Assembly (NCBI GenBank): GCA_964036195.1
Contig: OZ038454.1
Coordinates: 21,996,315 to 22,060,314, forward strand
Reading direction: 5' to 3'
DNA: 64,000 nt
Source: Sphaerolaimus hirsutus
Lineage: Eukaryota > Nematoda > Chromadorea > Monhysterida > Sphaerolaimidae
Within the stretch, counting starts at the first letter, position 1, and each line of letters begins with the position of its first letter. The notes beneath the pieces are model-generated. The model saw only the letters and a list, made by a program, of their open reading frames with translations. It was not told the DNA's origin and did no database searches. Both the position numbers and the translations under genes were made by a program. Positions 17,671-58,967 of the stretch are shown here, in pieces.

Positions 17671-19072
17671 GGTCCGCCACACAAATTCTGTGTCGGTGCC
17701 GGATGCCATATCTCCAGTTGTAGTGGGGGGATTTATTCGAAATTTTGAGGGAATATACTCGAAACCCACCCACTACTATATACGGGCTGATGAAGGTCGG
17801 CGACCCACCTGAGTGTGGGTCGCCGTATACATGAATAGGTTTTTTTGAAAAAATCGCTGTCCACGCGAGGTCCGCCACCCCGTGTTTTTTTGATAAAACG
17901 GGCTGTCAAACTAAAACTGTTGGGGGGAATTGATCAAAATTTTGAGGGGGTGTACACGACACCCCCACCTACTTTACACGAAAGGTTGAACCCCCTGGCG
18001 ACCCCCCTGAGGGTGGACCGCTGGAAAATAAACTGTTTTTTTTTTATTCACTGTCCAGGTTTGGTAATGTACAATAAATATAAAAATTACATTAGAAAGT
18101 CCCCTAGAGGACAATGTATACAATGCTAAAAAGTGTGTATTAAAAAAGCAAATTTTAAAACAAAAATTTGATCTGGTATGAAAGTGTATTTGACACCCAT
18201 AAAGAAGTTCCAGATTAAATTTTGATTGAAGTCAAATCTTTAATACACACTTTTGAAGCTGGTTTACGATGTCCTCTAGGAGATGATTTAAGGAAAAAAA
18301 TCGCGTAAACAACATTGCACCAAAAATCAATTATGGAGGAGATTTGATGGGGGTCACTGTAATGATGTCATTGATGATGTCATTCCAGGAACAAAATTCG
18401 CTTTGTGGGACAGCTTTTGTGTTGACCCCCATCAAATCTCCTCCATGGTTGATTTTTGGGGCAATGTTGTTTACACGATTTTTTACCTTAATCATCTCCT
18501 AGAGGACATCGTAAACCAGCTTTAAAAGTGTGTAATAAAGATTTGACTTAAATCGAAATTTAATCTGGAACTTGTGTATGGGTGTCAAATACACTTTCGT
18601 TCCAGATCAAATTTTCGTTTTAAAATTTGCCTTTTTAATGCACACTTTTTAGCGCTGTATACATTGACCTCTAGGGGACTTTCTAATGTAATTTCTATTT
18701 TTGTTTGTACAATGCCAAACCTGGACAGCGAATTCTCAAAAAAAATTTATTTTCCAGCAGCCCACTCTCAAGGGGGTCGCCAGGGGGCTCAACATTCCGC
18801 GAATAGTAGTGGGGTGTGTCGTGTACACCCCCTCAAAATTTTGATCAATTCCCCCCAACAGTTTTAGTTTGGCAGCCCGTTTTATCAAAAAAACGCGGGG
18901 TGCCGGACCTCGCGTGGACAGCAATTTTTTCAAAAAAACCTACCTATTCATGTATACGGCGACCCACACTCGAGTATTTAACCTAAAAAATTTCGAAAAA
19001 ATCCCCCTACTACAGCTGGAGATATGGCCACCGTTCACCGACTCAGAAGATAGGTGGCGGACCTGGGGCCAG
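17671..19072. repeat. 1.4-kb near-perfect palindrome
   Basis: The left arm from 17671 (GTCCGCCACACAAATTC) is matched in reverse complement by the right arm ending near 19072 (GGTGGCGGAC). The pairing includes CCATATCTCCAG, GGTCGCCGTATACATGAATAGG and CGGGCTG motifs. The centre is near 18370, where GGAGGAGATTTGATGGGGGTC is mirrored at 18422. It is flanked by CAG on the left and CTG on the right. Any reading frames in it are shared by both arms and are not convincing genes. Confidence 0.7.
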
Positions 19073-19075
19073 TTC

Positions 19076-19698
19076 CGCAAGTAGACAAGTTAAGAGTTAA
19101 AAGTTAAGAGTTGAGTAAAATGACAAATGGCAAGTTAAGAGTAAAGTTAAAGTTTAAGAGTTGAGTTAAATGTTAAGAGTTGAGTTAAAGGTTAAAAGTT
19201 GAGTCAAAAGTTAAGAGTTGAGTTAAAAGTTAAAAGGTGAGTTAAAAGTTGATTTAAAAGACAAATGGGTCATTCGTTGCAGAAGCGCGATACGCTGATC
19301 TTCGATCATATTTTGTCCCCGCACAGCCATTTTGAAACAACGTTCCGCGATTTTTTCTTTTTTTAGCGATAATTTTTTTGGATACGTTATTTTCAAATGT
19401 CGTGCATACAACATTGGCAGCATGCCAGCGAACAGCCGTATCAATACCAATTTCACATTTTTATATTTTGTTACCATTATTTTCCACTTGTCTCTTAACT
19501 ATCAATTCTTAACTCAACTCTTAACTCAACTTTTAACTCTTAACTCAACTTTTAACCTTTAACTCAACTCTTAACATTTAACTCAACTTTTAACTCAACT
19601 CTTCAATTTTAACTTTTCTCTTAAACTTTAACATTACTCTTAACTCGCCATTTGTCATTTTACTCAACTCTTAACTTGTCCACTTGCGGAACCGGCAC
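19076..19698. mobile_element. 623-bp palindromic element, CTG target duplication
   Basis: The ends GGGCCAGTTCCGCAAGT and ACTTGCGGAACCGGCAC are inverted repeats, flanked by CTG (19073-19075, 19699-19701). Both arms are arrays of short AGTTAAGAGTTGAGTTAAA-type repeats and their complement. Read on the - strand the element would start GTGCCGG and end CCCCAG, so it has the same potential splice polarity as the GPCR introners. Confidence 0.75.
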
Positions 19699-19979
19699 CT
19701 GGTGTGTCCCCTGTTTTTTTAAAGCTATTGACTTTGGTCCAGAAAGATGTCTTTTTTTACGTGCCTTATTTCCAGCCCCCCCCCCCCACTTGACTAGCCT
19801 AGCTTATGTTAGCCTTGATTTTCAGCAAACACATGTATTTACAATGTGTCCTAACATAATATATGATGCACCAACACAGTTTTCGGACTCATGAGAGCTA
19901 TTTTTGTCTGGACAGCATCTCAGCTTTCTTTATGCCGCTTTTGTGCCGGTTTGTCGTGCAGTGTGCCTGGTTACAGTCC

Positions 19980-31315: not shown

Positions 31316-32665
31316 TTAATGCGATAGATGTACTACTTTCCAACAGTACCTCCCCGGTACTGTTTCTAAAGAGTCGCCATGTTGAAAAGACAGATTGGGA
31401 CCAGATATGTCAACTATCCGATAAGGGCCCACAAAACGTGGCACTGTTTTGTCCGGTGAAAATTGGCGCACCATCACCATGTCACCGATCTCCATAGTGC
31501 GGTTTGGTTTGTTGTCAAAATACTTTCTATAGCGATCTCGGTTTCGTTCACTTTGATTACGGGCCACTGTTCGGATCAAGGTGGGATTATCTTGTTTCGC
31601 CGCCGCGTAAAAAAGGTTCCAATGAGGGAGGTGTCCAAAAATTACAAAAAATGGACAACACTTCAGATTTTTGTTCATCGACAAGTTGTATTTCAACGTG
31701 ACAACTGGTAAGAGCTCCCTCCAATCGGTTTTTGGGTGTTGTTTTCGTACAAACATGTAAATGTCACGTAAACGCCCGTTAACACGCTCTACCATACCAT
31801 TAGCCGCAGGGTTATGCGCTAATACAGGTGTGTGCTTGACGCCAAAAGTGTCGCAGAGAGCATGAAAATCAGAATTCAAGAATTCTGTGCCTTGATCTGT
31901 GATTATCAGCCTAGGCGCGCCATATATCAAAAATATGTTTTTCATAACAGCTCTTGCCACAGTACTTCCGCGTGCAGATGTGAGTGGGAAAGTGATGGCA
32001 TAACGTGTGAAAGCATCGACAGCCACTAGGACTTTGGATTTTCGATTATTATATTCAAACTGCATTGTATCAAAGTGCATTACATCAAACGCTTGGCTGG
32101 GGGTTTCAGTAGCGCCCAGCGGCAGAGGTCGTAGCGCATGTCGCTTATTCTGCATGCATTCGGAGCATTGTTTGCAAAAATCTAAAATTTGCGCACGCAT
32201 ATCAGGCCAAGCAAAATATTGGCACAGCAGGTCCAACGTTTTTTCCTGACTCCCGTGACTGGCGTAAATTCCCATGTGAGCCTGTTCAAGGCAAGCTTGC
32301 TGCCAGTTCCTGGGTGGCCATATAGCATATGAGTTATCTCCACAAGGGGTTTTGTGGTACAACACATTGTCAATGAGCAGCGCGTCATTGAACACGTCTG
32401 GATCATGTTTCAACTTTTCGATAATTACTCCTAATTCAGGATCATTACTCTGGGCCGTTTTCCAGTCAAACTCAACTTGCTGTGTAATAATTTTGGCTTT
32501 GTGTGCCGGCCCAGTGAGGTGAAATCCAGGAGAGGTGTTCACTGCCATGCCGCGCACAAGTTCTGTTGGCACTTGTAATTCATTTTGCCCGAATGCATGC
32601 TCCGAATCCGATTGATTTTGAAGCTTAATAACTTGCCAATTTCTGGGCCGATTTGGATCATTCAA
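31316..32665 (-). CDS. Gypsy-like LTR-retrotransposon integrase (partial pol)
   Basis: A 449-codon open frame on the - strand. A zinc-binding HHCC motif lies at H130, H137, C167, C170. The catalytic triad is D199 (HFDTMQ), D257 (ITDQGTE) and E293 (NGMVERVNGR), giving D,D-35-E spacing. A C-terminal chromatin/DNA-binding region follows (GDMVMVRQF, FVGPYRIV). Reverse transcriptase, RNase H and LTRs are absent. The first ~15 codons derive from a flanking repeat shared with 53990-54110, so the true ORF start is lost. The intact frame suggests a fairly recent insertion. Confidence 0.85.
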   Translation of the reverse strand: MNDPNRPRNWQVIKLQNQSDSEHAFGQNELQVPTELVRGMAVNTSPGFHLTGPAHKAKIITQQVEFDWKTAQSNDPELGVIIEKLKHDPDVFNDALLIDNVLYHKTPCGDNSYAIWPPRNWQQACLEQAHMGIYASHGSQEKTLDLLCQYFAWPDMRAQILDFCKQCSECMQNKRHALRPLPLGATETPSQAFDVMHFDTMQFEYNNRKSKVLVAVDAFTRYAITFPLTSARGSTVARAVMKNIFLIYGAPRLIITDQGTEFLNSDFHALCDTFGVKHTPVLAHNPAANGMVERVNGRLRDIYMFVRKQHPKTDWRELLPVVTLKYNLSMNKNLKCCPFFVIFGHLPHWNLFYAAAKQDNPTLIRTVARNQSERNRDRYRKYFDNKPNRTMEIGDMVMVRQFSPDKTVPRFVGPYRIVDISGPNLSFQHGDSLETVPGRYCWKVVHLSH

Positions 32666-32669
32666 CTCT

Positions 32670-36002: not shown

Positions 36003-39000
36003 GTAAGTTAGCTAAGTTAAATATGTACTGGCTTTGGCTAATTCTGCAACTGAAAAACAGGACTGACAAGTGAACTATAAAGTATTTGTCCCAGGAAGCA
36101 TTTATGCCAGTACCTAATGAGCCCCTTTGCTATATTTAGGTCCACCAAATATCCAAAAATATCGAAGAATTTTTTTTTGGAAAACCACTGGATATCAACA
36201 TTTTTCTCAAAATGTATAGTAAATCATTAGTATAAAAATTACATTGTCTGTACTCAGATACTAACAAAAAGTATACATAAAGGCTGAGTTACAGTTACAG
36301 CATAAGGCCAAATAAATGGTGAATATCGGTTATTGCTTTCAACCTGTCAATTTAGGGATTGATATCTCTTAGCTTTCTTGCGTATCTGTAATTTGTCGTG
36401 GCTGAATTTGTCGTTCCACCTTTTATTTGTCGCTATGCCGTAACTCCGCCTTGGGCGAGTACAGCTACTTTTTGGGAGGAAACAACAACATATTTACAAA
36501 TCACTTGAGCAGGTATACACAATTTTCGACGAAATGTAGCAGGAAAAAAACCCCATGACAACTACCCCCAACCCCCCAGCCACCCAACCGCGACCCCGAA
36601 TTCACGCTGCCCTCGTGGATCCTGTGGATGGTGCTGGCCACCATGCGCACCATGGCCGTGCTCGGCTTGCTCGGCAACGCCGCCGCCCTGCTCCTGTTGT
36701 ACACCAGACGGCCCCTGGCCAGGCTCGCTTCTACGGCCTTTTTGAAGGCCCTCGCTGTGGCCAGTTCCATTGTGCTATTGACGCTACTCGCGCCGGTTTG
36801 AAGGGGGGTCTTTGTGATTGGTGGAGATGTGAAAGCGTCATTGCAAGTATACTCCAGTCACTTTACACCCTGCACGCGTGGTTCCCGCTGGAAGCGTGCC
36901 AACGATTTTTTACGCATGCGATTAGCATAAAAAGTTGAAAGAAGTCATCTCTGTTACAACGCTATACGTAAACTTATTCACAACAATGATTTTTTCATCA
37001 TTTATACAAAAATCGCATGCTTTATCATCATTGGCACGCTTCCAACGTGAGACATAAATGAGTGCGAGGGCAGAGTATCATGTTCGCTGGGTTCATATTT
37101 ATACTCCGATCCGAGGACAGAGGGCAGTATGCATCCGCGCATAAATACTTATGTCATGCACGCCTACGCACCAAATGTGATATTTATGTACGCATTTTCA
37201 CAACAAAAAAAAACAACTTATTTTCAAAAGAAAAAGGCGGGGTCAGGTATTTACAACCAACATATATGTTTCATGCATGAAATAATTTCTTATTCAACAA
37301 TTTTTATTCGTGTTGACGCCATAATAACGTTCAGAAAAGTACCTAGGTACGCATAATGCGGTCCGTGGAGTACATTATTTATTGGCGGTTCAATGATATA
37401 GCAGGAACACTCGTTGGGTTTTTTGGCGCCGGGCGCCAAAGGGCGCCAGAAAAAATGGCGCCAACGATAAGAGTCTCTATTTTAGCATGTAAATATTTTT
37501 ATCATAACAGAAGCTTTTTTAGAAGACCAATATGTTGCCGTATTGCCTCCAAATATCCCTTGAATTAACACCCCTTCGAGATACCCGGGCCAGATTTAAT
37601 ACTCCCTACAGATTTGTAGGGTAGGGCGTACGCCCGATAGTTTTTCAAAGTTCAGCCGCATCGACGCACATGCACCGAGAGCAAGGCGGTTCGTAAAATA
37701 CACGAAACTATCCCTTAAGGTCGCCGATATTGCAATATGACGGTTATCGCTTCGATTTTGGCTCGGAAATCACGATTTCGTCATTTCGTGGCCGTCTGCC
37801 AATTCGTTTTTTATTTTATTTTGTCGGGCAGGTTACTCGCATAAGTCGCGCTTTTGTACGCTCGTGCATGCATTTCTTTCTTGTCGCTGCCCTCATGGTT
37901 TCGGTTGCAGACAGTGAACACTAAAAAAGTGACCACCTGACTACACAAAAGCGTGACCTATGCGAGTAACCCGCCCGACAAAATAAAATAAAAAACGAAT
38001 TGGCAGACGGCCACGAAATGACGAAATCGTGATTTCCGAGCCAAAATCGAAGCGATAACCGTCATATTGCAATATCGGCGACCTTAAGGGATAGTTTCAT
38101 GTATTTTACGAACCGCCTTGCTCTCGGTGCATGTGCGTCGATGCGGCTAAACTTTAAAAAATCTGTCGGGTGTACGCCCTACCCTACAAATCTGTAGGGA
38201 GTATTAAATCTGGCCCCAGGTCTGAGCAAGTTGGGGGAAAAAAACCCAACTCGACACCCCCGTCTGTAATAAGGTACATCATGTTTGCAATATGAACATG
38301 ATGTTTTAATGGCTGCCAATTTACATCTCAGCTATACCGTATTTGCTCGAAATACCCAAAGGAAGTTTATTTTTCAGAGTGCAAATTACGATGGGCGGGG
38401 GCATTTCGAGGGGGTGGGGTTTATTCGAGGGGTGGTTGTATTATTTCCCCAGAAATTTTCGAGACAGATCGTAGTAAATATGGTCTTTTACATACCGAAA
38501 ACCAACGATGGGTAAGTTCTCCACAAAAAAACACTTTCTGTGTTTTGAGTTTTTCAAAAATGAATACCTGTGTTTTGAGTTTTTTTATCAAAAAAAACTT
38601 GAGTAACTCTGTTTTTATTTCTGTGTTTTTTGTTAAAACTCGAGTTTTTTGAGTTTTTTTCTAAAAAACTCGAGTTTTCCCCCCAAAAATTGGAAATTCT
38701 CTGATTTACAGCATTTTGAAGTGGAAACAGCGGTTTTCTTATAAAATATTGGTTTTGCTCATGTTTAAACCCCACATAACATATGTGTATTCATTTAAGT
38801 CCATAAAAATGTCCTCAATGAGGACATCCACCGACATCACAACACCAGCATCAACAAAATGCTCACAAACGACAATTTACGCAGTACTCCAAAATTCTTC
38901 AATGGATGTGCACTGTATGGAAGACCACAGAATTGATTTGAACTACAACTATATTTAAACATGTCCACCAGGAGATGTGCATGCCATCTTTAATTTATTT

Positions 39001-42000
39001 TTTGTTCCAACATAAAATATGAATACATTATGTACATATTTACATGCTATACATGCATATCTTATCTTGTTTAGTTTAACTTGTGTTCAACCACTTCGCT
39101 GAAAAAAACACAAAAACTCAAAAAAAAACTTTTCTGTGTTTCCGTGTTTCTGTGTTTCTGTGTTCTCCAAAAAAAAACTCATTTGAGTTTTGAGTTTTTC
39201 AAAATTTGTGAGTTTCCGTGTTTCTGTGTAAAACAAAAACACAGAAACTCAATGAGTTTCTGTGTTCAATTTCTGTGTTTTTTTCATCGTTGCCCAAAAC
39301 AGGTAATAAAAGTGACAAAACAGGGTATATTTAAATGTACCGTATTTCCTCGAAATACCCCCAGGGGGTTATTTTTTCAGAGTGAGCATTTTGAGGAGGT
39401 ATTTCGAGGGGGGTATTTCGAAGAAATACGTATCAACGTTGATGGCTACACAAACTAGTCTTATGTGTGGCTGTGATGCCTATGGCATCGATTAATACAT
39501 CATGTACATTGTGTACATGATGTACCTTATTCCCGACGGGGTATTTCGAGGGGCTTATCTTTAACTCAGCTCGATAAAACCTGGGGGTATTTCGAGGGGG
39601 TGTATTTCTAGGAAATACGGTATATTCACTGCTTGTGTAACGATCTACGGTGATAATGTCCAAAAATTTCCTATTTGGTCACATTTATTCGCAGAATTTT
39701 GTCGCCATTTCTGGCGCCATCCAAAACAATGGCGCCGGGCGCCAAATTGGCGCCAGCGAAAATGGCGCCAAGCGCCAAGGGCGCCATGGCGCCATTCGGA
39801 ATAATGGCGCCAGGCGCCAGATAACGCCAGAGAAAAGGGCGCCAAGCGCCAATGGCGCCATGGCGCTGGCGCCCTTTGGCGACATTAAAGGGCGCCAGCG
39901 CCATGGCGCCATTCCATCACTACTCATAAATAAGATTTGAACGTGTTTGAGTTTTCTACAATGAGTCATTTTTTATCTCCGTCAACTGCAGTTGACGGCC
40001 ACCTCATTGAAGCAGACTCAAATGCGTTCTAAGCTGATTCGTGAGTTGTCGAAATTTCGTGTGAAAAATAGTGCGCACACTCACAAGCACATTGTATCTA
40101 TTGTGCCTACACACAGATTTGCACCGTAGCTTCGATGAAAACTGAATTGACGACGTCGCCATCCTGTGCACTATCATTGTATGCTACCTACGTCTTTATG
40201 TGTTTTAGTTTTCACACTCCCAAAGTGTAAAACTTTCATTTATTTAATTTCAAATATAAATTAAGGTAAATCATTCAACCGATAACCGAGTTGATTCATA
40301 TGAATTTGAATTACCGATATCAGTTTACGCCAAAGTCGCGGTGCAAACTAGTGTGCACATTGGCGCACCACACACTGAAATTTTGAGTTCAGCGTTCGAA
40401 CGTTTTTGCACGCTGAACTACAAACGCTGAAATCAAAATCTAAAGAACACAACGTTTTTGAAGCCTAGATGATCCGGTATTTGTAATATTTCGCGCATTT
40501 TGCATGCGAGCCGATTTTTTACGCTTCAAAAACGTTATGTTCTTTAGATTTTGATTTCAGCGTTTGTAGTTCAGCGTGCAGAAACGTTCGAACGCTGAAC
40601 GCAAAATTTCAGTGTGCGGTGGGCCAATGGCGACACGAAGTTGAACCGATCACCGCTTCTCCGCAGATCTTCGAGTACGTGTCGCGGGTGCCGCTGTACG
40701 CGCGCCTCAATGCCGGCTGCAAGCTGATCACGTTCGTGTCGCACACCTTCGACTGGATGTGCAACTGGTGCATCGCCCTGATCGCCTTCGAGCGCGCCGC
40801 CGTGCTCCGCCGCTGGCCCGACAGGTGCATGGGGGGGGGGGGTCTGATTGTTTACTATGCTACTGGCAGCACGTTTTGCGGAAGAGTCCCGGTATGTAAT
40901 CTTGGAAAAATGCCAAAACGGCCGTGTGGATGCACTCGTTTTCACACATACATCGCATACAAGCGTCAACTGGTGGTGGGCCACTATTAGCGACCATTCC
41001 CGGTTTCTTAATCGCATTCCGCGGCCATTATCGGTGACGCGGACATAAATCCTGCGTCCTTTACTTTGGTTCGTACAATATCCAATTGTATCAAACTATA
41101 TCCAATACAACCTTGTAGTAGTGCCAAGATTGCATAAATGACCCGATCCCATTTTGCGTGGGGAGTTGGTATTTACCGTATTTTTCTGATAGAAGGACGT
41201 CCGTCTATTTTTCGACGATTTTTTTACACGCCCTTCTATTAGAGACGCCTTTGTATTGAAGACCCGGCCTTCTATTAGAAAAATTATGTTATTTTATTTT
41301 CTTCATCTATTTATAATACTTTCCCAAACATAATTAGTATAATAAACATTGTCAGTACTTGCACTGGCGCCCACCATATGCACAAAAATTGGTTCAGAAG
41401 AGAAGGGGGTGGAAGCGGCCGGTTGCATGTGATTGATTTGCCTTTCACATGCTTCATAATATGCACTTCGCGAGATTTTAGATGAACTGCGTCACAAGGA
41501 GTGAAGTGTCTTTCAAACGCGTGTCTCCGTTTCACCGTCACAAGCGTTTTCTGCACACTCCCACGCGTTTTACAAGACTTTTTCTGAAGTGCCTTCCGTA
41601 CGCTTACACAGCTTTCTCGAGGTTTTTGGTGAAAGGGACTTCCCCTGAAATAGACTTACAAGGATTTTTAAAAAAAACGTCGATTTTAAAAGATTGGTGC
41701 AACAACAATCGCACAAAACCACACGAAGCTACTTCACAACACTTCACGCCTCATCACACCCCATCACACATCTAACCCCCCCCTCACAGATGGCGTTGCG
41801 TGCGCCACCTGTGCTCGGCCGTGGGCGCCAGATGGGCGTGCCTCGTCTTACTTTCCGCCGCGCTGCTAGCGAACGCGTGGACTCTGCGCGTGGCAGAGAC
41901 GGATAATCTGGGCTGCGCCGTGCACACGCATCACAGAAAGCTGTTTAGATAGTGAGTAGTGATGTAAAGGCACCGGGGCACCGGTGCCCCGGTGCTGGGC

Positions 42001-45000
42001 ACCGAAGGGCACCAGCACCGGTGCTGGTGCGGTGCCATTGCAATCTTCAGGGGTGCCATGCCGGTGCCGGTGCCATTTTTTTCAGAATAGCACCGGTGCC
42101 GGTGCGGTGCGGTGCCATTTTTTTGCCGGTGCCAAAGGTGCTAGCACCAGGGCAAAGTAAAAGGCACCGGGAAAGGCACCGGCCAAGGCTTCATGTGCTG
42201 TGCAATTTTGTCCATAGCATGTGCTTATTCATATTTCAAAAAACAGCGATATATATACCCAACCGTTTTTGCCTATTTTGTAAACCTCCCATCAAATAAA
42301 TATACCTACTGTGAAATCCATTATACCCGATACGTGATCTGATGAGCGAATCTAAAATTTTGTTTAATTTTTATCATTTTTATATTTTATATTTATCGTA
42401 CTTTTTTGTTCAAAATTTGTTGTCAGTTTATGACAGAGATAGTTCCATTCTCTGTACAGCAACATCTCCGATCAGTAGACAATAGTGGCTATGGACATCG
42501 TAGTAAATTAAATATTTTATCTTTCATTTGTAATCATTGTAATTGCTTCATAAAAGTGATTGCCACATCATTCTGATCATTTTAAGTGCTCAACCATCAA
42601 AATCGGTTGAAAATTCATGGAAACATGCACTTCCAAAGGTGAAACCACTGAGAAACTGCCCGATATTTACTTCAGAAATTCCAGCCCGGTGCGGTGCCTT
42701 TCGGTGCTAGCACCGGCAACCCGCCGGTGCCCTTCGGTGCCGGTGCCATTTTTTCCAAAAGGCACCGGTGCCGGTGCGGTGCGGTGCCATTTTCTGACCG
42801 GTGCCCCAGGGTGCCAGGTGCCCTTTTCATGCGTTGGCAAAGGTGCCGGTGCGGTGCGGTGCCATTTTTCCCGGTGCCTTTAACATCACTAATAGTGAGT
42901 TTGAATAGGTGGGAGTTTGGACCTTTGTGATTGGATGCTTTTGTGAGTGGGTTGAGTAGCGGGCGGGCTACCATGTGCCTGTAGACATGTAAACCCGCTA
43001 GTCATGTAGACCCGCCAGTCATGTGTTTTAAGGGGATTAGCATGACAGGGGTGTTGGCACTGGCAGGATTACGGCATGATAAGTAGAGTATGCACTCGCA
43101 TTGTTTTTGCCACTCTTTGATGATACCACTCAGAAAAATCAGAAATAAGTTGTTGCTCATTTGAGTTTTTCAGTTAAACTTTGAGCATTGCCATCAATAT
43201 AGTGACAAAAAAGATGAGAAGATGTGACACTGTGTAGTGGCCTCACTTATGTACCACCATTGCTATTATATCCTCCATGGCAGGGGTTAAGTAGAGGGGG
43301 GTTGGGGGGGGGTTACCCCCCCCCCCCCAAATTGGCCAGCTATTTTTCTATCCCGGAGGCAAAATTTTTGGCTATCTATCCCCCAAATCGTCCAATTTTT
43401 AAGAAATTTTGGCCCAATTTTCACTCAAAATCGCTAATTTTCATACCTTTTTATAGTTTTTCACCTTCAAAATTCTAATTCACATTCCTTATTGCCTTAT
43501 TTAGTGATTTTTTGTACTATACATACTTATAGACCTATTTCTAGCTGTTTTTCACCTACTTTTGGCGATTTTCCCCCTTTTTCCATCTATACTTGGAAAA
43601 GCCTAACTATTGAACCCCCGCCAACCCCCCCTCCCAACCCCCCCCCCCCAAAAAAAAAAAAAATTCAGCTATCTATCCCTCCGGAGGAGCGATTTACTAT
43701 CTATATAAACCCCCGCCAGGGTCCAAATCTACATATCCCCTGCTTTATGGGGGGTTTACATGACTAGGGGGTCTACATGACTACTGGGTTTAAATGACTA
43801 GTGGGTTTACATGACTAGGCCTACATCGGCGAGACCAGTAGTAAGTAGGCCTGTGCACTTTTAAGTGAGAAATAAAGTGACAAGTAAAACTGTGGATGGA
43901 AATTCATGTTTTGCGTGCCTGTATCATACGTGCAGAATGAATTAGGGCCTTGGCAGTAGTGAATACATCACAGATTGAAAGTACCTACCTAAATACAGTA
44001 TACCTCAATGCCAGCGCTTCCAAATTTGAAGCGTGTTTCACAGATCAAGTTTGCAGGGTCCAGTAAGAAATGTGAAGCATATGGACATAATCCGTGGTGG
44101 TGAAATGTCTCTTCACGCCAATTCCCCACACCAAGCTGAGTATAACAGATCACAGCGCTTCACCACGCATCACACTCTCACTTAAATCTAGCCATCCGTG
44201 AAGCCAGCCAATCTAATCAAAAATCGCTCGCAGTCTCGTAATGGTGGAAACGGTCACGTCGGTGGTCCTACCGCTGCTGTTGATCATCGCCTGCAACTGC
44301 ATCACCGTGTTCGACTACCAGAGATTTAGGAAGACTACCAAACGGGTGCGTTGGGAGAACGTGGAAATTGGCGGCTCGCCAACTAGTTGACACATGTGTA
44401 TGCGTGTCAACTGGTATGTATCAACTCAGATTTTGGGTTCATATGTCGTGTCGCAGTGTGATCTCCAAATGCACACGCGCATGTTGAAAAATAAATATTA
44501 CGGCGAGTGCATTGGCGGATCGCTGTGCGACACGTGAAGCCAAAATCTGAGTTGACACAGACCAGTTGACACACAGCAAAAAATGGGTTCGTGAAGTGCG
44601 CTCTGTGAAGAAGTTTTCGGTGAAGTGTCTTCCACTCACTTCACCTAGCTTCACGAAAACCGAAATTCGTGAAGTGCACTTCACGAACCTTTGCAGCATA
44701 CTTTGCATGGTTCGTGAAGTTCCGTGAAGCGTCTGGAATGCAATGAAGTGTCTTCACGCCGACATTGCGCATCTGCGTGAAGTCACTTCAAGACGCTTCA
44801 CCGCGCATCACACACCCATTTTTTGCTGTGACACACATGTGTCAACTAGTGTGCGGGCCGCCAATGTTGACACGATTGAAGTCGACGCTATTTACGGCAA
44901 TTCGACTAATAGTGAAAGCAATGTAGTGTGATGCAATGGTAAAAATAATATTTTTGGCTTTTCATTCTGATGAAATATGGTACCGTATTTCCTCGAAATA

Positions 45001-48000
45001 CCCCCCTTGAAATACCCCCCTCAAAATGGGCACTAAGAGTTTGTGGTCCGGAGCAGGGTTGGTTTTATAAAAATTCATTTTAGTAAAATTGTATAAAAAT
45101 TGTATAAAAATTTTATTTTATTTTTATTTTATTCTTCTTTCATTTTATTTTATTTTATTTTATTCCCAAAAGTCGTTAATAAAATAAAATGACCCATTTT
45201 ACAAAAATTTTACATTAATTTAACAAAAATTTTACAAAAAATCTGAATCATGCATGCAAGGCCAGAAAAATTTCATCATTAGACATTATACATGAAAAAC
45301 TTGTGACAAATTTTTCCATTACTTGACAAAAGTTGCATGCAGTAGGTATTGTTAGCTAGCAGCAAGTGTAAACTTACCATTATTGATAACAATGGTTTGC
45401 ATTTTTAAAGGACTACTGGTGCCAGTTCCGCAAAATGAAAAGTGAGAAGTGAAATGGCGAAGTAATCGAGCAAAGACAAAGTCAGAAAGGCTGAAGGTGG
45501 CAGCTTGCCCATTGCGCTTTTACTTCGTCTTTGCCATTTCACTTCTCACTTCTTATTTTGCGGAAGTGGCCCCTGGACTGTGCTGGGCACATTTGTAAAA
45601 GATTATGCAAAGTGTCAATTGTCATGACAAATGTAAAGTAGTGTCAATTGTCATGCAAAATGTCAAGTGTCATGGAAAATGTAAATTGTATAACCAAATC
45701 TTAGGTTTTTCTATCCAAATCTTATGTTTATGTAGCCACATTTGGATACAGAATGTAAGATTTTGATACAAAACATAAGATCTGGATACAATACAGAAGA
45801 TTTGGATAAAAGAGAAGATTTGGATATAAAACATAAGATTTGGATACAATTTGCTTGACAATTGGCACTTTAATTTATTTTTGTCATGACAATTGACACT
45901 TTACTAGTTATTTGCCATGACAATTGACACTTTGCATGGCATTTTTCATGACATTTGAGACTTTACACAGCTTGGGACCGCTCCCAGTTCCACGAATAAA
46001 CAGGTAGAAACTCAAGCAACAAGAAAAATATTTTACAAATAATATGAAGTTTTATACAATTTTACATAAAATATGAATTTTTATACAATTTTACAAAAAT
46101 TTTACAAAAATTCGAATTTTTATACAATTTTTATTTTTATTTTGAAATTTTCCATTTTATTTTATTTTATTTTATTCTTAAATTTTCCATTTTATTTTAT
46201 TTTTATTTTTTTCTGCGATTTTGCCAACCCTGGTCCGGAGAATGTATAACAGACATTCAAAACACTTACTGTGTTACGTTAGAACATCGTTTATACCATC
46301 TATATCTTTATATAAGGCTGTAAAAACTTATAAATGGTGGTTATTGTGCATTTTTCACGTTTTTCTCTCAAAATTTTCGCTCTGAAAAAATAAACCCCCT
46401 GGGGGTAATTCGATGAAATACGGTAGTTTTATTGTAAAGTATGGAACACGTAGGGTTTGGAACACGAACCGACACGTACCGTCACTTTTTGGAAGTATCC
46501 CATTATTAGCGCCATGTTGCTCGGCGCCCCTGGAGCCTGGTGCTTTTCATGTTGTGGGAAAATACAGCGTTCCACTAAAACAATCCCTCAAAATTCAAAA
46601 ACAAAAGATAAAATCAAAACCCTACTTCCATTCAAAAATCGCAACTCACTCAAACCAACCCACAATCCTCACAGGTGCGCATGTCCGTGTCGGGCGCGGA
46701 CAAGTGCAAGTGGGCGGCGGGGGGCACGCTGAGCACGTTCAGCTACAAGGCCAAGTCGCGCCTGGTGCGCCTCATGTCCGCCGTAAGTCTGGCCGCCGCC
46801 GGCGCGCAGAGGGCGCCCCATCATACCGCCGTGTATACTGTGGTCCGTTCGGGGGAACTGGGAGGGCTGCGCTGGGGCCAGATCCAATTGCGACGTAGGG
46901 CGCTCCGTAGGGCGCGCGAGGCGCGTGTTGGGCGCCCTAGATAACGGTCTAATAATTTTGGACCTGGTCGATGGGCGTTATGAAAATAAGTGATTTTGAA
47001 CGAAAATTGGGGCGAAATTTCTCAAAAGCAATCACTTTTCCGTTATATTTACACGGTTTTACAAACGAGTAAAACTATTTTAAAAAAACTATCTAAGTTG
47101 TGTGTACTCAGAAGGTGAGTAAAAATAAATACATTACGTTTACGTTTTAAAAACTTCGGTACTTTTAACAACTCTGCCTGGCACGTATTAGGACACCGGC
47201 AACAAAATGGCACCGCATCGGCACCGGCGCCATTCCCCAAAAAATGCACCCGCACCAAAGAGGGGGGGGGTGTCGCCGGTGTCAGCACCGAAAGGGCACC
47301 GCACCGGGTTGCTTAAATTACCGTAATTACCTCGAAGTAAACACGTAAGTACCCGACTCGACCCCCTCTCAGCAAGTGAACGGCACGCTGAGCGAGCGGA
47401 CGAACGACGACGCGGGCAGCGTCAAGCTGCAGGTGGGCGACAGCAACGTGCCGCTCGACGACGGCGGCGGCAAGCCGGCCGACGTGCTGCTCGCGCCCGC
47501 CGTCGGCTGCTCGACGCGCAGTTCCGCAGACACGGCGGCAACTAAGGGCGCCACCGCGGCGCGACGCCGCTCGGCCGCTAGGTGCGACCTGCGGCTAACG
47601 CGCACCCTGCTCGCGGTTACTTGGCTGTTCATCGTGTGCAACCTGGTGCCAGTCTCGGACTCTGTGAAGTGTGAAGTAAAGTGTTAAGTGTCAGGTAAAG
47701 TGTCATGCAAAGTGTCAAGTGTCATGCAATTCTCAGTAACAAAATCTTTTTTTGTTTTGTTTTGATTGACATTTTACCTGACATTTGACACTTTACTTTA
47801 CACTTTGCAGGGTCTGGGACTGCCCCCAGCCCTTCTACTTGATGCGCTTCTACACGACCATCATAGACGAGACCATGTCGGCGCCGCCGACGAACTCGTT
47901 GCTCAGCTATTTCGTGTTCACCTTCGCGCCGTACTTTCTGTACTACCTGCACTTCGCTGCGGTGAGCGTGTGCTACACTCTGTACGGCGGCCCCAGTACC

Positions 48001-48315
48001 AGACACGTGCTCAGGTGCCAGTCCCGGATCCTGTAAAATGCCCTGTAAGATGTCAAATGTCACGCAAAGTGTCAAAAGTCATGTAAAGTGCCCTGCAAAA
48101 TGGCGACTCGGTTGCCATTTTGCAGGGCATTTTACATGACTTTTGACACTTTGCGTGACACTTGACATTTTACATGGCATTCTACAGGGTGCGGGACTGC
48201 CCCCAGGGGTCTGTGCTGCCAAATGCTGCAGTGCGACTGCATCAAGACTGAGGGCGCGCGCATGGCCGATCGGGAAATGCTGCACCAGGCGGCGGCTAAT
48301 TGTAATGGAAGGTGA
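35889..48315 (+). CDS. Class A G-protein-coupled receptor, nine-exon gene model, 478 aa
   Basis: Spliced model: 35889-36002, 36580-36795, 40667-40824, 41790-41951, 44234-44345, 46675-46782, 47373-47645, 47830-48014, 48207-48315. All junction phases agree (0,0,2,2,0,0,0,2) and the frame stays open to a TGA. The protein is a seven-helix plasma-membrane receptor. Its N-terminus has four N-glycosylation sequons (N9, N13, N21, N28). Helix 1 has GN at 70-71. C128 before helix 3 can pair with C205 in loop 2. FER (151-153) replaces DRY. Helix 5 has P230. Helix 6 ends CNLP (379-382). Loop 3 is long (about 250-365). The tail has a CC pair (446-447) that may be palmitoylated. NPxxY in helix 7 is not recognisable. 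The ligand is unknown; the CNLP helix 6 and FER resemble invertebrate peptide receptors (inference). The upstream promoter and any 5' non-coding exon were not identified. Confidence 0.85.
36580..36795 (+). CDS. GPCR exon 2: helices 1 and 2
   Basis: The exon follows a C-rich CCCCCCAG acceptor and ends before a GTTTGA donor. Its 72 codons carry two hydrophobic helices: the first with GN (70-71), then a short basic loop YTRRPLARL, then helix 2 starting STAFLKALAVAS, a typical class A loop-1/helix-2 boundary. It is GC-rich against an AT-rich intron. The donor is the weakest in the gene. Confidence 0.85.
37587..38216. mobile_element. 630-bp palindromic element in GPCR intron 2, copy 1
   Basis: It shares ends and body with the element at 48504-49065 (GGGCCAGATTTAAT, GTAGGGCGTACGCCC, TTTATTTTATTTTGTCGGGC). 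The two arms are nearly identical inverted repeats of about 300 bp around a centre near 37900. The flanks are CCC and CAG, so the 3-bp duplication is not perfect here. Confidence 0.7.
38510..39292. repeat. Inverted arrays of CTGTGTTTTGAGTTTTT units
   Basis: Left block (38520-38690) and right block (39090-39290) contain short repeats of TGTGTTTTGAGTTTTT and complement, around an AT-rich core. An AACGATG motif at each end is inverted, suggesting a transposable element with eroded termini. Confidence 0.5.
39340..39620. mobile_element. CCGTATT palindromic MITE in GPCR intron 2
   Basis: Ends CCGTATTTCCTCGAAATACCCC and TTCTAGGAAATACGG. The core contains GATTAATACATCATGTACATTG. Partial copies lie at 33480-33590 and 38337-38470. 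Confidence 0.75.
39700..39925. mobile_element. GGCGCC-family MITE fragment in GPCR intron 2
   Basis: GGCGCCATGGCGCC palindromes ending GGCGCCATTCCATCACTA near 39921; the left terminus is absent. Smaller fragments of the family lie at 6589-6750, 13100-13200, 15781-15905, 37421-37465 and 54176-54375. Confidence 0.6.
40355..40628. mobile_element. Palindromic element just before GPCR exon 3
   Basis: Ends CCACACACTGAAATTTTG and CAAAATTTCAGTGTGCGGTGG with arms GTTCAGCGTTCGAACGTTTTTGC.../complement. Its right end is about 40 bp from the exon 3 acceptor, so the branch point probably lies between or in its end. Confidence 0.7.
40667..40824 (+). CDS. GPCR exon 3: end of helix 2, helix 3
   Basis: The acceptor is CTTCTCCGCAG and the donor CGACAG|GTGCAT. 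The exon encodes the conserved helix-3 cysteine in AGCKL, a helix-3 body with FVSHTF, and LIAFERAAVLRRW, where FER stands in for DRY. It ends in phase 2, so the next codon (AGA, Arg) is split with exon 4. A palindromic element (40355-40628) ends about 40 bp upstream of this exon. Confidence 0.9.
41790..41951 (+). CDS. GPCR exon 4: helix 4 and loop 2
   Basis: The acceptor is CCCCTCACAG and the donor is ATA|GTGAGT. Only the frame dictated by exon 3 is sensible: a basic loop (WRCVRHLCSAVGARW), a hydrophobic helix 4, then a loop with the GC cysteine (C205). The 5' splice site overlaps the 8-bp target duplication of a hAT insertion that begins six bases into the intron. Confidence 0.85.
41957..42891. 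mobile_element. hAT-type MITE (GGCACC family) at the GPCR intron 4 splice donor
   Basis: Inverted ends TAGTGATGTAAAGGCACCGG and GGTGCCTTTAACATCACTA with a perfect 8-bp duplication ATAGTGAG (41949-41956, 42892-42899). The arms are (GGCACCGGTGCC)-type palindromic repeats. The core contains CATTCTGATCATTTTAAGTGC. The duplication includes the GTGAG of the exon 4 donor. It is the same element as 16546-17404 in inverted orientation. Confidence 0.9.
43281..43742. mobile_element. hAT-type MITE (CAGGGGT family) in GPCR intron 4
   Basis: Ends CAGGGGTTAAG and CATATCCCCTG, interior homologous to 55201-55703. The flanking octamers CTCCATGG and CTTTATGG differ at two positions, consistent with an older insertion. 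Confidence 0.65.
44234..44345 (+). CDS. GPCR exon 5: helix 5
   Basis: The acceptor is ATCGCTCGCAG and the donor CGG|GTGCGT. One base completes the split Tyr codon from exon 4. Then come 37 codons with helix 5, including the conserved proline (P230) in VVLPLLLII and a basic start of loop 3 (YQRFRKTTKR). Confidence 0.85.
45419..45572. mobile_element. 154-bp palindromic element, CTG target duplication
   Basis: Inverted ends GTGCCAGTTCCGCAAAATG and ATTTTGCGGAAGTGGCCC, flanked by CTG at 45416-45418 and 45573-45575. The arms carry AAGTGAGAAGTGAAATGGC and its complement. It is nested in the hAT element 45054-46232. Confidence 0.75.
45583..45983. mobile_element. Introner-family element, left end degraded
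   Basis: The right end is ACTTTACACAGCTTGGGACCGCTCCCAG. The body holds TGTCAATTGTCATG repeats and many ATAAGATTTGGAT copies, as in 1700-2015. The left end is unclear because another element lies immediately upstream. Confidence 0.5.
46675..46782 (+). CDS. GPCR exon 6: intracellular loop 3, first part
   Basis: The acceptor is AATCCTCACAG and the donor GCC|GTAAGT. It is 36 codons, GC-rich, phase 0 at both ends, and encodes a polar and basic segment (KAKSRLVRLM) that fits loop 3. No domain is recognisable within it. Confidence 0.75.
47373..47645 (+). CDS. GPCR exon 7: rest of loop 3 and helix 6
   Basis: The acceptor is CCCCCTCTCAG. It is 91 codons: a low-complexity Asp/Gly/Ala/Arg linker, then LRLTRTLLAVTWLFIVCNL, helix 6. 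The exon ends CTG|GTGCCAG, where the intron is a transposable element. Joining to exon 8 restores CNLP with the helix-6 proline. Reading on through the element would end the frame within about 16 codons. Confidence 0.85.
47646..47829 (+). mobile_element. Introner-like palindromic element forming GPCR intron 7
   Basis: The 184-bp intron is GTGCCAGTCTCGGACTC...GGTCTGGGACTGCCCCCAG. Its two ends are inverted repeats (GTGCCAGTC-TCGGAC with GTCTGGGACTGCCCC). The arms continue as imperfect AAGTGTCA/TGACACTT repeats to the centre. The flanking 3 bp are CTG on the left and CAG on the right; the right one is the splice acceptor. The right end closely matches the end of the 1700-2015 fragment. There is no transposase, so it is non-autonomous. 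3-bp CWG duplications are reported for some PIF/Harbinger elements, but the superfamily is not established here. Confidence 0.85.
47830..48014 (+). CDS. GPCR exon 8: loop 3 extracellular and helix 7
   Basis: It starts after GACTGCCCCCAG and ends CTCAG|GTGCCAG. It encodes PFYLMRFYTTII (end of helix 6), an extracellular loop and helix 7 (SYFVFTFAPYFLYYLHFA...), followed by YGGPSTRHVL, the start of the tail. A canonical NPxxY is not visible. It is bounded on both sides by introner-like elements and ends in phase 2. Confidence 0.85.
48015..48206 (+). mobile_element. Introner-like palindromic element forming GPCR intron 8
   Basis: The 192-bp intron begins GTGCCAGTCCCGGATCC and ends GTGCGGGACTGCCCCCAG. 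The two arms are near-perfect inverted repeats over roughly 90 bp each, separated by a short loop near 48110. The target duplication is a perfect CAG (48012-48014 and 48204-48206): the left copy ends exon 8 and the right copy is the 3' splice site. It has the same termini as intron 7, so it is the same family. Confidence 0.9.
48207..48315 (+). CDS. GPCR exon 9: cysteine-rich C-terminal tail
   Basis: One base completes AGG (Arg), then 35 codons starting GLCCQMLQCDC, and a TGA at 48313-48315. A basic-hydrophobic stretch followed by paired cysteines is typical of helix 8 and the palmitoylated tail. An AAG|GTGACC just before the stop could be an alternative donor, so a longer tail cannot be excluded. 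Confidence 0.75.
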
Positions 48316-48346: not shown

Positions 48347-48500
48347 CGGGGCCACGACCGGGTCCTGTAAAATGTGAAATTTTATGCAAAATGTGAAAAG
48401 TTATGTAAAATGGAAAATGAAAATGTGAAAAATGTTTAACGACCAGTAAAGAAATGAAAGGAACGTTGACATTTTACAGGGTCTGGTACGGTAGTGGCAG
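48347..48500. mobile_element. Related palindromic element just after the GPCR stop
   Basis: The left end GGGGCCACGACCGGGTCCTGTAAAATG and the right end CATTTTACAGGGTCTGGTAC...GTGGCAG are inverted and share the CAGGGTCTG/CCTGTAAAATG subterminal motif of the introner-like family. It starts about 30 bp after the stop codon, so it lies in the 3' UTR or a 3' intron. It is directly adjacent to the next element, which starts at 48504. Confidence 0.6.
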
Positions 48501-48503
48501 CTG

Positions 48504-49065
48504 GGGCCAGATTTAATTATCCCTACAGATTTGTAGGGTAGGGCGTACGCCCGATAGATTTTTTTAAGTTCAGCCGCATCGACGCACATGCACCGAGAGC
48601 AAGGGGGTTTGTAAAATATACGAAACCATCCCTTAAGATCGCCGATATTGCAATATGACGTATATCGCTTCGATTTTGGCCCGGAAATCACTATTTCGTC
48701 ATTTCTTGACCGTCTGCCAATTCGCTTTTTATTTTATTTTGTCGGGCGGGTTACTCGCATAAGTCGCACTTTTGTACGCTTATGCTGCTCGTGCATGCAT
48801 TTCTTTCTTGTCGCATAACCCGCCCGACAAAATAAAATAAAAAACGAATTGGGCGACGGCCAAGAAATGACGAAATCATGATTACCGTGCCAAAATCGAA
48901 GTGATATACGTCATATCGCAATATCGCCGACCTTAAGGGATGGTTTCGTATATTTTACAAACCGCCTTGCTCTCGGTGCATGTGCGTCGATGCGGCTGAA
49001 CTTTAAAAAATCTATCGGGCGTACGCCCTACCCTACAAATCTGTAGGGAGAATTAAATCTGGCCC
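48504..49065. mobile_element. 562-bp palindromic element, CTG target duplication, copy 2
   Basis: Inverted ends GGGCCAGATTTAAT... and ...ATTAAATCTGGCCC are flanked by CTG on both sides (48501-48503, 49066-49068). Subterminal motif CCCTACAGATTTGTAGGG is itself a small palindrome. The arms pair over almost the full length. It is homologous to 37587-38216. No open coding frame for a transposase is visible. Confidence 0.75.
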
Positions 49066-49599
49066 CTGGTGCTGATTATACGCATTGGCAAGTGATATTT
49101 TAAGTGATAAGGCAGTGATAGGATTTAAGGATATTACCTAGTTGTGAAATAATAAAAGTCTTCTCCGTTCTTTTTTTATATTTTGTTATTTACAACCAAT
49201 CAATTCCTTATGACCTGACGAGCTTTACATTGGCCGCTGGCATTGTAGTAAAGTTTAGGCACATTTTGGTAAATTTTTGTGTGTATCCATTCCGGTATGT
49301 TTATTGGCACGTTTATTGTTAAATTCTTTTTAGGGATAATTTGCACCTGCGTGTGCATTGTATCATGTATGAAGTTGCTCAAGTTATGATTTCTCAAGAT
49401 TTCTTACAATTTGTAAAATATATTCCAGTAGCTACATGAATTTATAAGCTTGCATAATAAATACCTTTTTTTTACACATTAAAGGGTTTTTTGGTCGATC
49501 CAAAATTGCTCATTTTGCTGTAATTTTCGTCAGGTATTGTGGTACAAGGTGGGTACATCAGCATTGACCAGTCACGCACTCAACTGTAAATGGTAAATA

Positions 49600-57009: not shown

Positions 57010-58967
57010 TAGGGTGTCAAAAAATTTTTTTTACGGAAAACGGAAAACGGAAAGGTAAAATTTTTTCACTTTACGGAAAACGGAAAGGTAAAAAAAAATT
57101 TCTGCCGGAAAACGGAAAACGGAAAGGTAAAAAAATTTCACTCAGCGGAAAACGGAAAACGGAAAGGTAAAAAAAAATTGTCGGCCGGAAAACGGAAAAC
57201 GGAAAAATGAAATGCCGGAAAACGGAAAACGGAAAGCAAAATTTTCACGGAAATGGAAAAAAATAAAGTGAAATTAGCACGGTAATAGACAAATTTGCAG
57301 AAGGAAAACCTGCATGCAGGTTTGCCTGTTTGGCTTTGATTGTGGTAGCTGTACATTCTGCAACTATGGATCATGCATGTAACTTCACTTGTAGTTTAAG
57401 CTTAACCGAACCAACAAAAAATCATCAAAAAGTAGCCATAGTGGCCATAGGAAAGGAAACACTATGACAATATCACAGTCTAGAAGCAGTGGGAATCACT
57501 GATGACCCCTATGCAATTGATGAGCACATTGCAGAGGAGATGATAATAAATAGCATAAAATTCAACGACAACAACAAACAATACTATATTGACTGGCCGT
57601 ATAAAGAGAGTATCAGTGACCTGCCCACAGGAAAAGCAGAAGCCTTGGTGCACTTTAAATCACTGATAAGAAGATTCAACAAAGATCCAAACTTATTCAA
57701 ACAATACCAGAAAGTTTTGGACGACCAACTAGAAAAGGGAATAATTGAGATCTGTGACAACAAAACAGACAACAAGGGGATTCATTACCTGCCACACCAG
57801 CCAGTAATCACGCCTGGCAAATCAACATCATGCAGAATCGTGTACAATGGGTCGGCAGGTAAGCCCAGTTTCAACGAGTGCCTTTTTAGAGGACCAATTA
57901 CAACACCATTAGCACTGGGCCTACTCCTGAGGTTCAGGGCAGGCAATCTAGCATTAATTGCCGATATTGAAAAGGCATTTTTGCAAATAGGATTGCATGA
58001 CCAAGCTAGAGACTACACATGATTTTTCTGGCTGAAAGATGCCTCAAAACCAGTAACTGAAAATAACTTAATAGTACTTCATTTTAAACGCGTACTGTTT
58101 GGACTTGTCTGCAGCCCAGCAATTTTGGGAGCAGTCATAAAATACCATTTAAATGTGACAATAAACAACATGAATGAATATGAAGAAAATGAAGGGGAAC
58201 AAAACCAGTTGGCGATGATAATAAACAACATTTACATCAATAACTTCATCATGAGTGTCACGAATGAAGTCGAAGCTTTAAAACTATATTACAAAGTCAA
58301 AGCTTTATTTAACCAATGTTCTATGAACATGAGGGAATGGCTGTCAAACTCCAGATCAGTCATGAATGAAATAGCAGAAAACGACAGGAGTCCAAAGGTG
58401 AATAAAATTGTCGCAGTAATGGGCATGAAATAAAATCACCGAATGGACATGCTGGCAATATCAACACCAAAATTGCAAATTGACAGCATCACAACACCAA
58501 CAAGACGAAACTTGAATAAATTATTGGTGTCAGCATATGACCCAATTGGGTTCACAGCACCTGTTTCACTGACCCTGAAATCCCAGTTGTCAATGCTGCT
58601 CCAAGAGACAAAAACAACACAATGGGATGAGCCAATTGAAGATAAATACAGATTGAAAAAACAATGGAAAAATGCCAGAAAACTGAAAATCAAGCCAGAA
58701 AATGGAAAAATGGCCTGGTAAAACGGAAACGGAAAGGTAAAAATTTTTCATCCGGAAAACGGAAAAATGGGCCGGATAAACGAAAACGGAAAGGTAAAAA
58801 ATTTTCAGCTGCCGGAAAACGGAAAACGGAAAGGTAAAAATTTTTCAGCTGCCGGAAAACGGAAAACGGATAGGTAAAAATTTTTCGGCTGCCGGAAAAC
58901 GGAAAGGTAAAAAATTTTCCTGCGGAAAGGCGGAAACGGAAAACGGAAACGGAAATTTGACACCCTA
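57010..58967. mobile_element. hAT-type MITE carrying a BEL/Pao retroelement fragment
   Basis: Ends TAGGGTGTCAAA and TTTGACACCCTA with a perfect 8-bp duplication CGCAGAAC (57002-57009, 58968-58975). Both ends are the GGAAAACGG minisatellite seen in 9668-10314. Between them (about 57290-58690) is BEL/Pao reverse-transcriptase DNA. The whole element sits in a CCGTATT MITE (56724-59108). Confidence 0.9.
57489..58721 (+). pseudogene. BEL/Pao-like reverse transcriptase fragment, inactive
   Basis: One + frame runs through the segment, broken by TGA (58020-58022) and TAA (58431-58433). Recognisable Pao features in order: an upstream VHFKSLIRRFNKDP region; the PHQPVI...RIVYNGSA palm region; motif A in LIADIEKAFLQIGL; FFWLKDAS just after the first stop; and DPIGFTAPVSLTLKSQL of the connection domain. 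The catalytic YxDD motif reads YINN (about 58234), so both aspartates are lost. Protease, RNase H, integrase and LTRs were not found. It would normally act in reverse transcription of the element; this copy cannot. Confidence 0.85.

Follow-up and report, generated by a model that had tools for sequence, protein, structure and literature searches.

The window, by which we mean the whole stretch of 64,000 nucleotides that was analysed, corresponds to C6:21996315-22060314 of the assembly that we searched (348 Mb, 762 contigs), and the proteins of its host are of animal type. It harbors a gene for a rhodopsin-type receptor on the + strand, extending from approximately 36.5 to 48.3 kb. The receptor protein matches Pfam 7tm_1 with an E value of 2.7e-18, obtained with two separately translated halves joined end to end and with the helix-4/helix-5 exon junction provisional. 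No homologue of the receptor at E <= 1e-3 was found among 7,995 scored candidates. The exons of the gene, and the two elements that interrupt its 3' part, are as follows.

36562..36795, + strand: receptor exon, helices 1-2 (exon start not fixed); open frame with 7tm_1 match, GT donor border by eye
40667..40824, + strand: receptor exon, helix 3; open frame, AG/GT borders
41790..41951, + strand: receptor exon, helix 4; open frame, AG/GT borders
44234..44345, + strand: receptor exon, helix 5 (left border less certain); open frame, AG/GT borders
46675..46782, + strand: receptor exon, third intracellular loop; open frame, AG/GT borders
47373..47645, + strand: receptor exon ending in helix 6 (..IVCNL); open frame
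47643..47645, + strand: left target copy of element 1, CTG
47646..47826, + strand: palindromic element 1 (181 nt), its left terminus being the GT donor; with the next CAG it makes a 184-nt intron; inverted arms, end words, RNA fold, similar copies
47827..47829, + strand: CAG after element 1, serving as AG acceptor; differs from the left CTG at one base
47830..48014, + strand: receptor exon, remainder of helix 6 and helix 7; open frame
48012..48014, + strand: left target copy of element 2, CAG
48015..48203, + strand: palindromic element 2 (189 nt); with the next CAG it makes a 192-nt intron; inverted arms, end words, RNA fold, 8% from the family consensus
48204..48206, + strand: right target copy of element 2, CAG, the AG acceptor
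48207..48314, + strand: last receptor exon, cytoplasmic tail to stop codon; open frame

The two element-bearing introns were called introns 7 and 8 in a preliminary description of this DNA. We resolved eight exons, and this numbering, kept here for convenience, relies on a putative further exon. The remaining five introns are GT...AG with borders placed by eye and are not bounded by elements. Introns 7 and 8 share their ends, GTGCCAGTC at 47646 and 48015 and GACTGCCCCCAG at 47818 and 48195, and both are complete palindromic elements. In element 1 the arms form an inverted repeat of 69 nt with 81% identity, spaced 49 nt apart, and in element 2 one of 94 nt with 89% identity and a 3-nt loop. The predicted RNA folds have energies of -99.4 kcal/mol (z -13) and -148.5 kcal/mol (z -23), respectively, relative to 200 dinucleotide shuffles. 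The borders of the elements coincide with the splice borders, GT...AG at 47646-47829 and 48015-48206, so that both introns are, judged by their sequence, of the canonical spliceosomal type. After excision the receptor has a single open frame that extends from the exon of helix 5 to the stop codon, with CNL|PFYLM and VLR|GLCC across the two junctions. All of this agrees with the preliminary description.

Two further claims of that description held in part. It took the right-hand target copy to be the AG acceptor, which the sequence supports for intron 8 with CAG on both sides; in intron 7 the left copy reads CTG and the right one CAG, one base short of a perfect target duplication, and it was rejected as such. 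It also proposed that new introns are made from the element terminus plus a target copy. The terminus would indeed provide GT and a CAG copy AG, but a faithful copy of a CTG target ends in TG and never in AG, and the claim that either target yields AG is therefore not supported as stated.

Other repeats were seen in the window. A related palindrome, GTGCCAGTTCCGC...GCGGAAGTGGCCC, lies at 45419-45572 (45416-45575 with the flanking CTG on both sides) within a larger receptor intron, so that some copies are not introns in themselves. At about 48348-48509, just 3' of the receptor stop codon, there is a degraded palindromic element, GGGGCCACGACCGGGTCCTG..., and at 19063-19701 a 0.6-kb palindrome with the ends GGGGCCAGTTCCGC / GCGGAACCGGCAC and CTG on both sides. 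The open frames at 31316-32668 (- strand) and 57468-58433 (+ strand) resemble those of retroelements, being integrase-like and Pao-like by eye.

As is characteristic of introners, similar copies of the elements are present at many sites in the genome. The word GTGCCAGTC occurs 6,611 times, the reversed word 2,171 times. A search of the whole genome with the element ends, as the preliminary description had proposed, found 560 exact copies of GTGCCAGTC followed by GACTGCCCC at a spacing of 140-170 bases, and 0 copies of the reversed control pattern. Intron 7 is included in this set, and intron 8, with a spacing of 171, falls just outside it. The genome-wide copy counts include copies within duplicated segments, and recent duplications are present among the copies (L041-L043, L089/L090 and L014/L015). 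A similarity search with intron 7 gave 1,602 candidates, 40 of which were scored. Intron 8 differs from the main consensus by 8% and intron 7 by about 32%, which makes two types.

The bases on either side of the elements reveal the target. In 362 of the 560 copies both flanks are CWG (left/right: CAG/CAG 190, CTG/CTG 106, CTG/CAG 50, CAG/CTG 16), and the remaining 198 are flanked otherwise. The two flanks are identical in 296 of these 362 copies (Fisher p 5e-35). This agreement indicates that CWG is a 3-bp target duplication, and it rules out that CWG is a fixed part of the element. Among 48 unselected distinct copies, the first 50 places listed (L039-L088, all on contig C1), the flanks are CAG/CAG in 18, CTG/CTG in 11, CAG/CTG in 3, CTG/CAG in 2, CAT/CAT in 1 and other in 13. 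The right end of the element, read inward, is GGGGCAGTC and of the GGG type, whereas the left end is GTGCCAGTC and starts with GTG. It is this difference at the second base, T in place of G, that places a GT donor at the left border.

A CWG target is known from NuwaI of the PHIS superfamily, which has a 3-bp CWG target duplication, termini starting with GGG and animal hosts (PMC4482050). The elements described here are like NuwaI in the CWG duplication, the inverted termini and the animal host. They differ in that NuwaI termini are usually GGG, whereas one terminus here is GTG and acts as the putative donor, and in that short MITEs here would serve as introns, a use not mentioned for NuwaI in the part of PMC4482050 drawn on here. 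We conclude that the elements resemble the NuwaI group of PHIS/Harbinger, with membership resting on the target and one terminus. No paper joining 'NuwaI' with 'introner' was found among the literature matches listed. The genome contains 163 matches to DDE_Tnp_4. Many of these, e.g. C2:10037349-10037981, have nearly the same score and include approximately 190 additional bases in which several TGA codons occur; the transposase gene may have an intron here. The window also contains two copies of a long palindrome whose ends read GGGGCCAGATTTAA, at 48501-49068 and about 37587-38216, the first flanked by CTG on both sides, which suggests that another family of elements shares the CWG target.

The orientation of the elements relative to genes was analysed by joining the flanks of 58 copies (the 2 in the window, the 48 unselected copies and 8 picked from the similarity search) and scoring all six frames by means of a codon model that had been trained on the receptor and refined on the same copies. 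Sixteen of the 48 unselected copies lie in clearly coding sequence, all 16 in sense and 0 in antisense orientation (p 3e-5), and 32 are unclear or non-coding. The model calls four of the 11 CTG/CTG copies in this sample sense (L048, L057, L065, L084) and leaves four without a strand call (L051, L055, L063, L076). The remaining three, L069, L077 and L081, were assigned to the sense strand from their proteins and not by the model. In L077, which interrupts helix 6 of a receptor, the model scored antisense higher and the sense protein resembles 7tm_1 with 24.2 bits at a cut-off of 30.5, while for L081, located in EFTUD2, it was even between the strands. Among 12 further CTG/CTG copies, two of which are one duplication, L096 and L099 were identified as lying in DNPEP and IFT70, and 10 are unsettled.

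The CTG/CTG copies in genes were unexpected. Joined peptides align without gaps across the CTG/CTG junction with proteins of the PDB for CNOT9, EFTUD2, DNPEP and IFT70 (4/4; picked as recognisable). A Pfam match spans the junction in OSCP1, in a xanthine/uracil permease (with one gap) and in the receptor helix 6 mentioned above (below the cut-off). For the joined proteins of L069, whose host we take to be patched-like, and of L054 there were no Pfam matches; SLC23 and ST13, as names given to host genes, are likewise our assumption. Element and intron have the same borders by sequence in both window copies and in CNOT9, EFTUD2, DNPEP, IFT70 and OSCP1. The CTG/CTG copies of these five genes are located at C1:10595875-10596052 (CNOT9), C1:20014882-20015065 (EFTUD2), C2:17750136-17750328 (DNPEP), C2:9516020-9516194 (IFT70) and C1:3591983-3592165 (OSCP1). 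Reading through the element as coding sequence was rejected, since the element with the next 30-60 nt contains, in the protein frame, one or more stops in eight of the nine genes scored, including the nicotinic acetylcholine receptor gene hit by L036; in the ninth, CNOT9, there is no stop but the frame is shifted.

In the CTG/CTG genes the protein is restored by an intron that starts with GT and ends with CTG, or that ends at an equivalent position of the duplicated CTG. The border that restores the protein is thus GT...TG, which would put these introns outside the GT-AG class. We tried all GT..AG pairs with a donor from -12 to +60 and an acceptor from 60 before to 12 after the element end, and in 8 of 8 scored CTG/CTG genes no such pair restores the protein without gain or loss of residues. 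Because no GT...AG choice tested restores the proteins exactly, the simplest reading of the sequences is that the CTG/CTG copies in genes are GT-TG introns. An AG at the 3' end of introns is near-universal. Among the best-preserved copies, approximately one third would produce introns with TG at the 3' end, which would be unusual. Two copies have other flanks, hinting at other acceptor or target variants: L019, which lies in sense at a site that appears to be coding, is flanked by CTG (left) and CCG (right), and L079, beside an STI1/HOP DP domain, by CCG (left) and CTG (right).

We consider it rather improbable that only the copies followed by CAG are real introns and that the CTG/CTG copies use cryptic GT..AG sites in or beside the element, with residues gained or lost. 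Candidate sites do exist: of 70 copies, 64 have a GT inside the element at +18 and 60 have an internal AG that precedes the terminal acceptor by 19 nt, and seven of the eight CTG/CTG genes have in-frame GT..AG options that add 2-33 or remove 2-4 residues. However, the AG at -19 is out of frame both with the terminal donor (19 nt) and with the donor at +18 (37 nt). The in-frame options vary between genes and would alter conserved stretches, and L069 is without any option in its reading phase. The chance is slighter still that the CTG/CTG gene copies represent insertion alleles, pseudogenes or assembly haplotypes with intact copies elsewhere. The recent duplications among the copies would be compatible with this, but the eight CTG/CTG gene copies are 5.6-8.8% from the consensus and hence not fresh, all eight are in sense orientation, and the flanking frames are open, in CNOT9 from the element to the stop codon. 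We give almost no credence to ordinary MITEs having landed in pre-existing introns. The palindrome within the larger intron of the receptor would be a case of this kind, yet the borders of element and intron coincide to the base on both sides, twice in the receptor and again in the other named genes, and this contradicts such an origin.

The copies with mixed flanks bear on the fate of the proposed GT-TG introns. If the right-hand bases were neutral, CTG/CAG and CAG/CTG copies should be about equally frequent, but the genome-wide numbers are 50 and 16 (p 3.3e-5, duplicated copies counted). An AG on the right is therefore favoured, as for a splice acceptor. The nicotinic-receptor copy L036 has CTG/CAG flanks, and Pfam ligand-binding and membrane matches lie on its two sides. 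We read intron 7 and L036 as CTG insertions in which the right copy has changed to CAG; any single CTG/CAG copy may instead be a CAG insertion that has changed on its left side.

Taken together, we think it probable that the two introns are short non-autonomous MITEs, NuwaI-like introners of PHIS/Harbinger type, whose terminus gives the GT donor and whose target copy gives the AG or apparently a TG acceptor. In brief, the counts show that transposition duplicates a 3-bp CWG target, and the sequence shows that a terminus starting with GTG in place of GGG makes the element carry its own GT donor. The right target copy would then become the 3' end of the intron, to which it contributes three bases. 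With CAG as the target the result would be a canonical GT-AG intron at once, as in intron 8, and with CTG a GT...CTG intron. Conserved genes would tolerate the TG-ended form, and its acceptor would be improved where T is replaced by A to give CAG, as we read intron 7.

A hairpin in the transcript, with both splice sites at its base, may join the sites and hide the internal GT and AG. In 57 of 58 copies both ends are enclosed by the predicted hairpin, which as a rule leaves 4 nt free on the 5' side and 7 nt on the 3' side. The splice sites would thus lie at its base, and the internal GT (+18) and AG (-19) within the paired arms. In human U2 introns, TG acceptors are alternative, rare, found only where an AG lies no more than 28 nt away and considered unable to act alone (PMC2374985). 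These human sites likewise make GT...TG introns, and the phrase 'GT-TG introns' is already present in one paper. The human TG sites are tied to the nearby AG, whereas here TG would be the site that restores the protein and would have arisen by transposition. The internal AG could act as the helper AG of the human sites, and it is present 19 nt upstream in 21 of 24 CTG/CTG copies. The EFTUD2 copy has no AG there, and the hairpin or another feature may therefore matter more.

Introners derived from DNA transposons are already known, and a broad survey reports introners, among animals and land plants, in only two groups, both animals (PMC9860276, the part used here). The introners treated there are, as here, non-autonomous DNA transposons in genes, with inverted termini and splice sites shared with the target duplication, and they leave the mRNA length mostly unchanged. 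The closest likeness is to example C of that paper, which carries a 5' site and co-opts a 3' site. Section 7 of the same paper names GC and GA donors and, in the part used, not TG acceptors; furthermore, the target here is CWG and the transposon group can be proposed. Introner elements of Amoebophrya share the inverted repeats, direct repeats of 3-5 nt at the exon borders, predicted hairpins that join the exons and non-canonical sites (PMC7789003). Amoebophrya is, however, a dinoflagellate in which the borders are very diverse and, in the part of that paper drawn on, no general link to a transposase is made, whereas here a single animal family has a fixed GT and either AG or TG.

The origin of new introns is a long-standing question. 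In this family the CAG or CTG target is already half a splice site, and the birth of an intron would follow from the choice of target. Going by the genomic sequence, we see an even chance that TG-ending transposon introns, dozens of them or more, are removed constitutively by an animal spliceosome, that the hairpin and not the AG rule sets their ends, and that T-to-A changes make some of them canonical. The CAG and CTG copies, which share a genome and a family, form a natural experiment on the extent to which the 3' AG rule bends and on its restoration.
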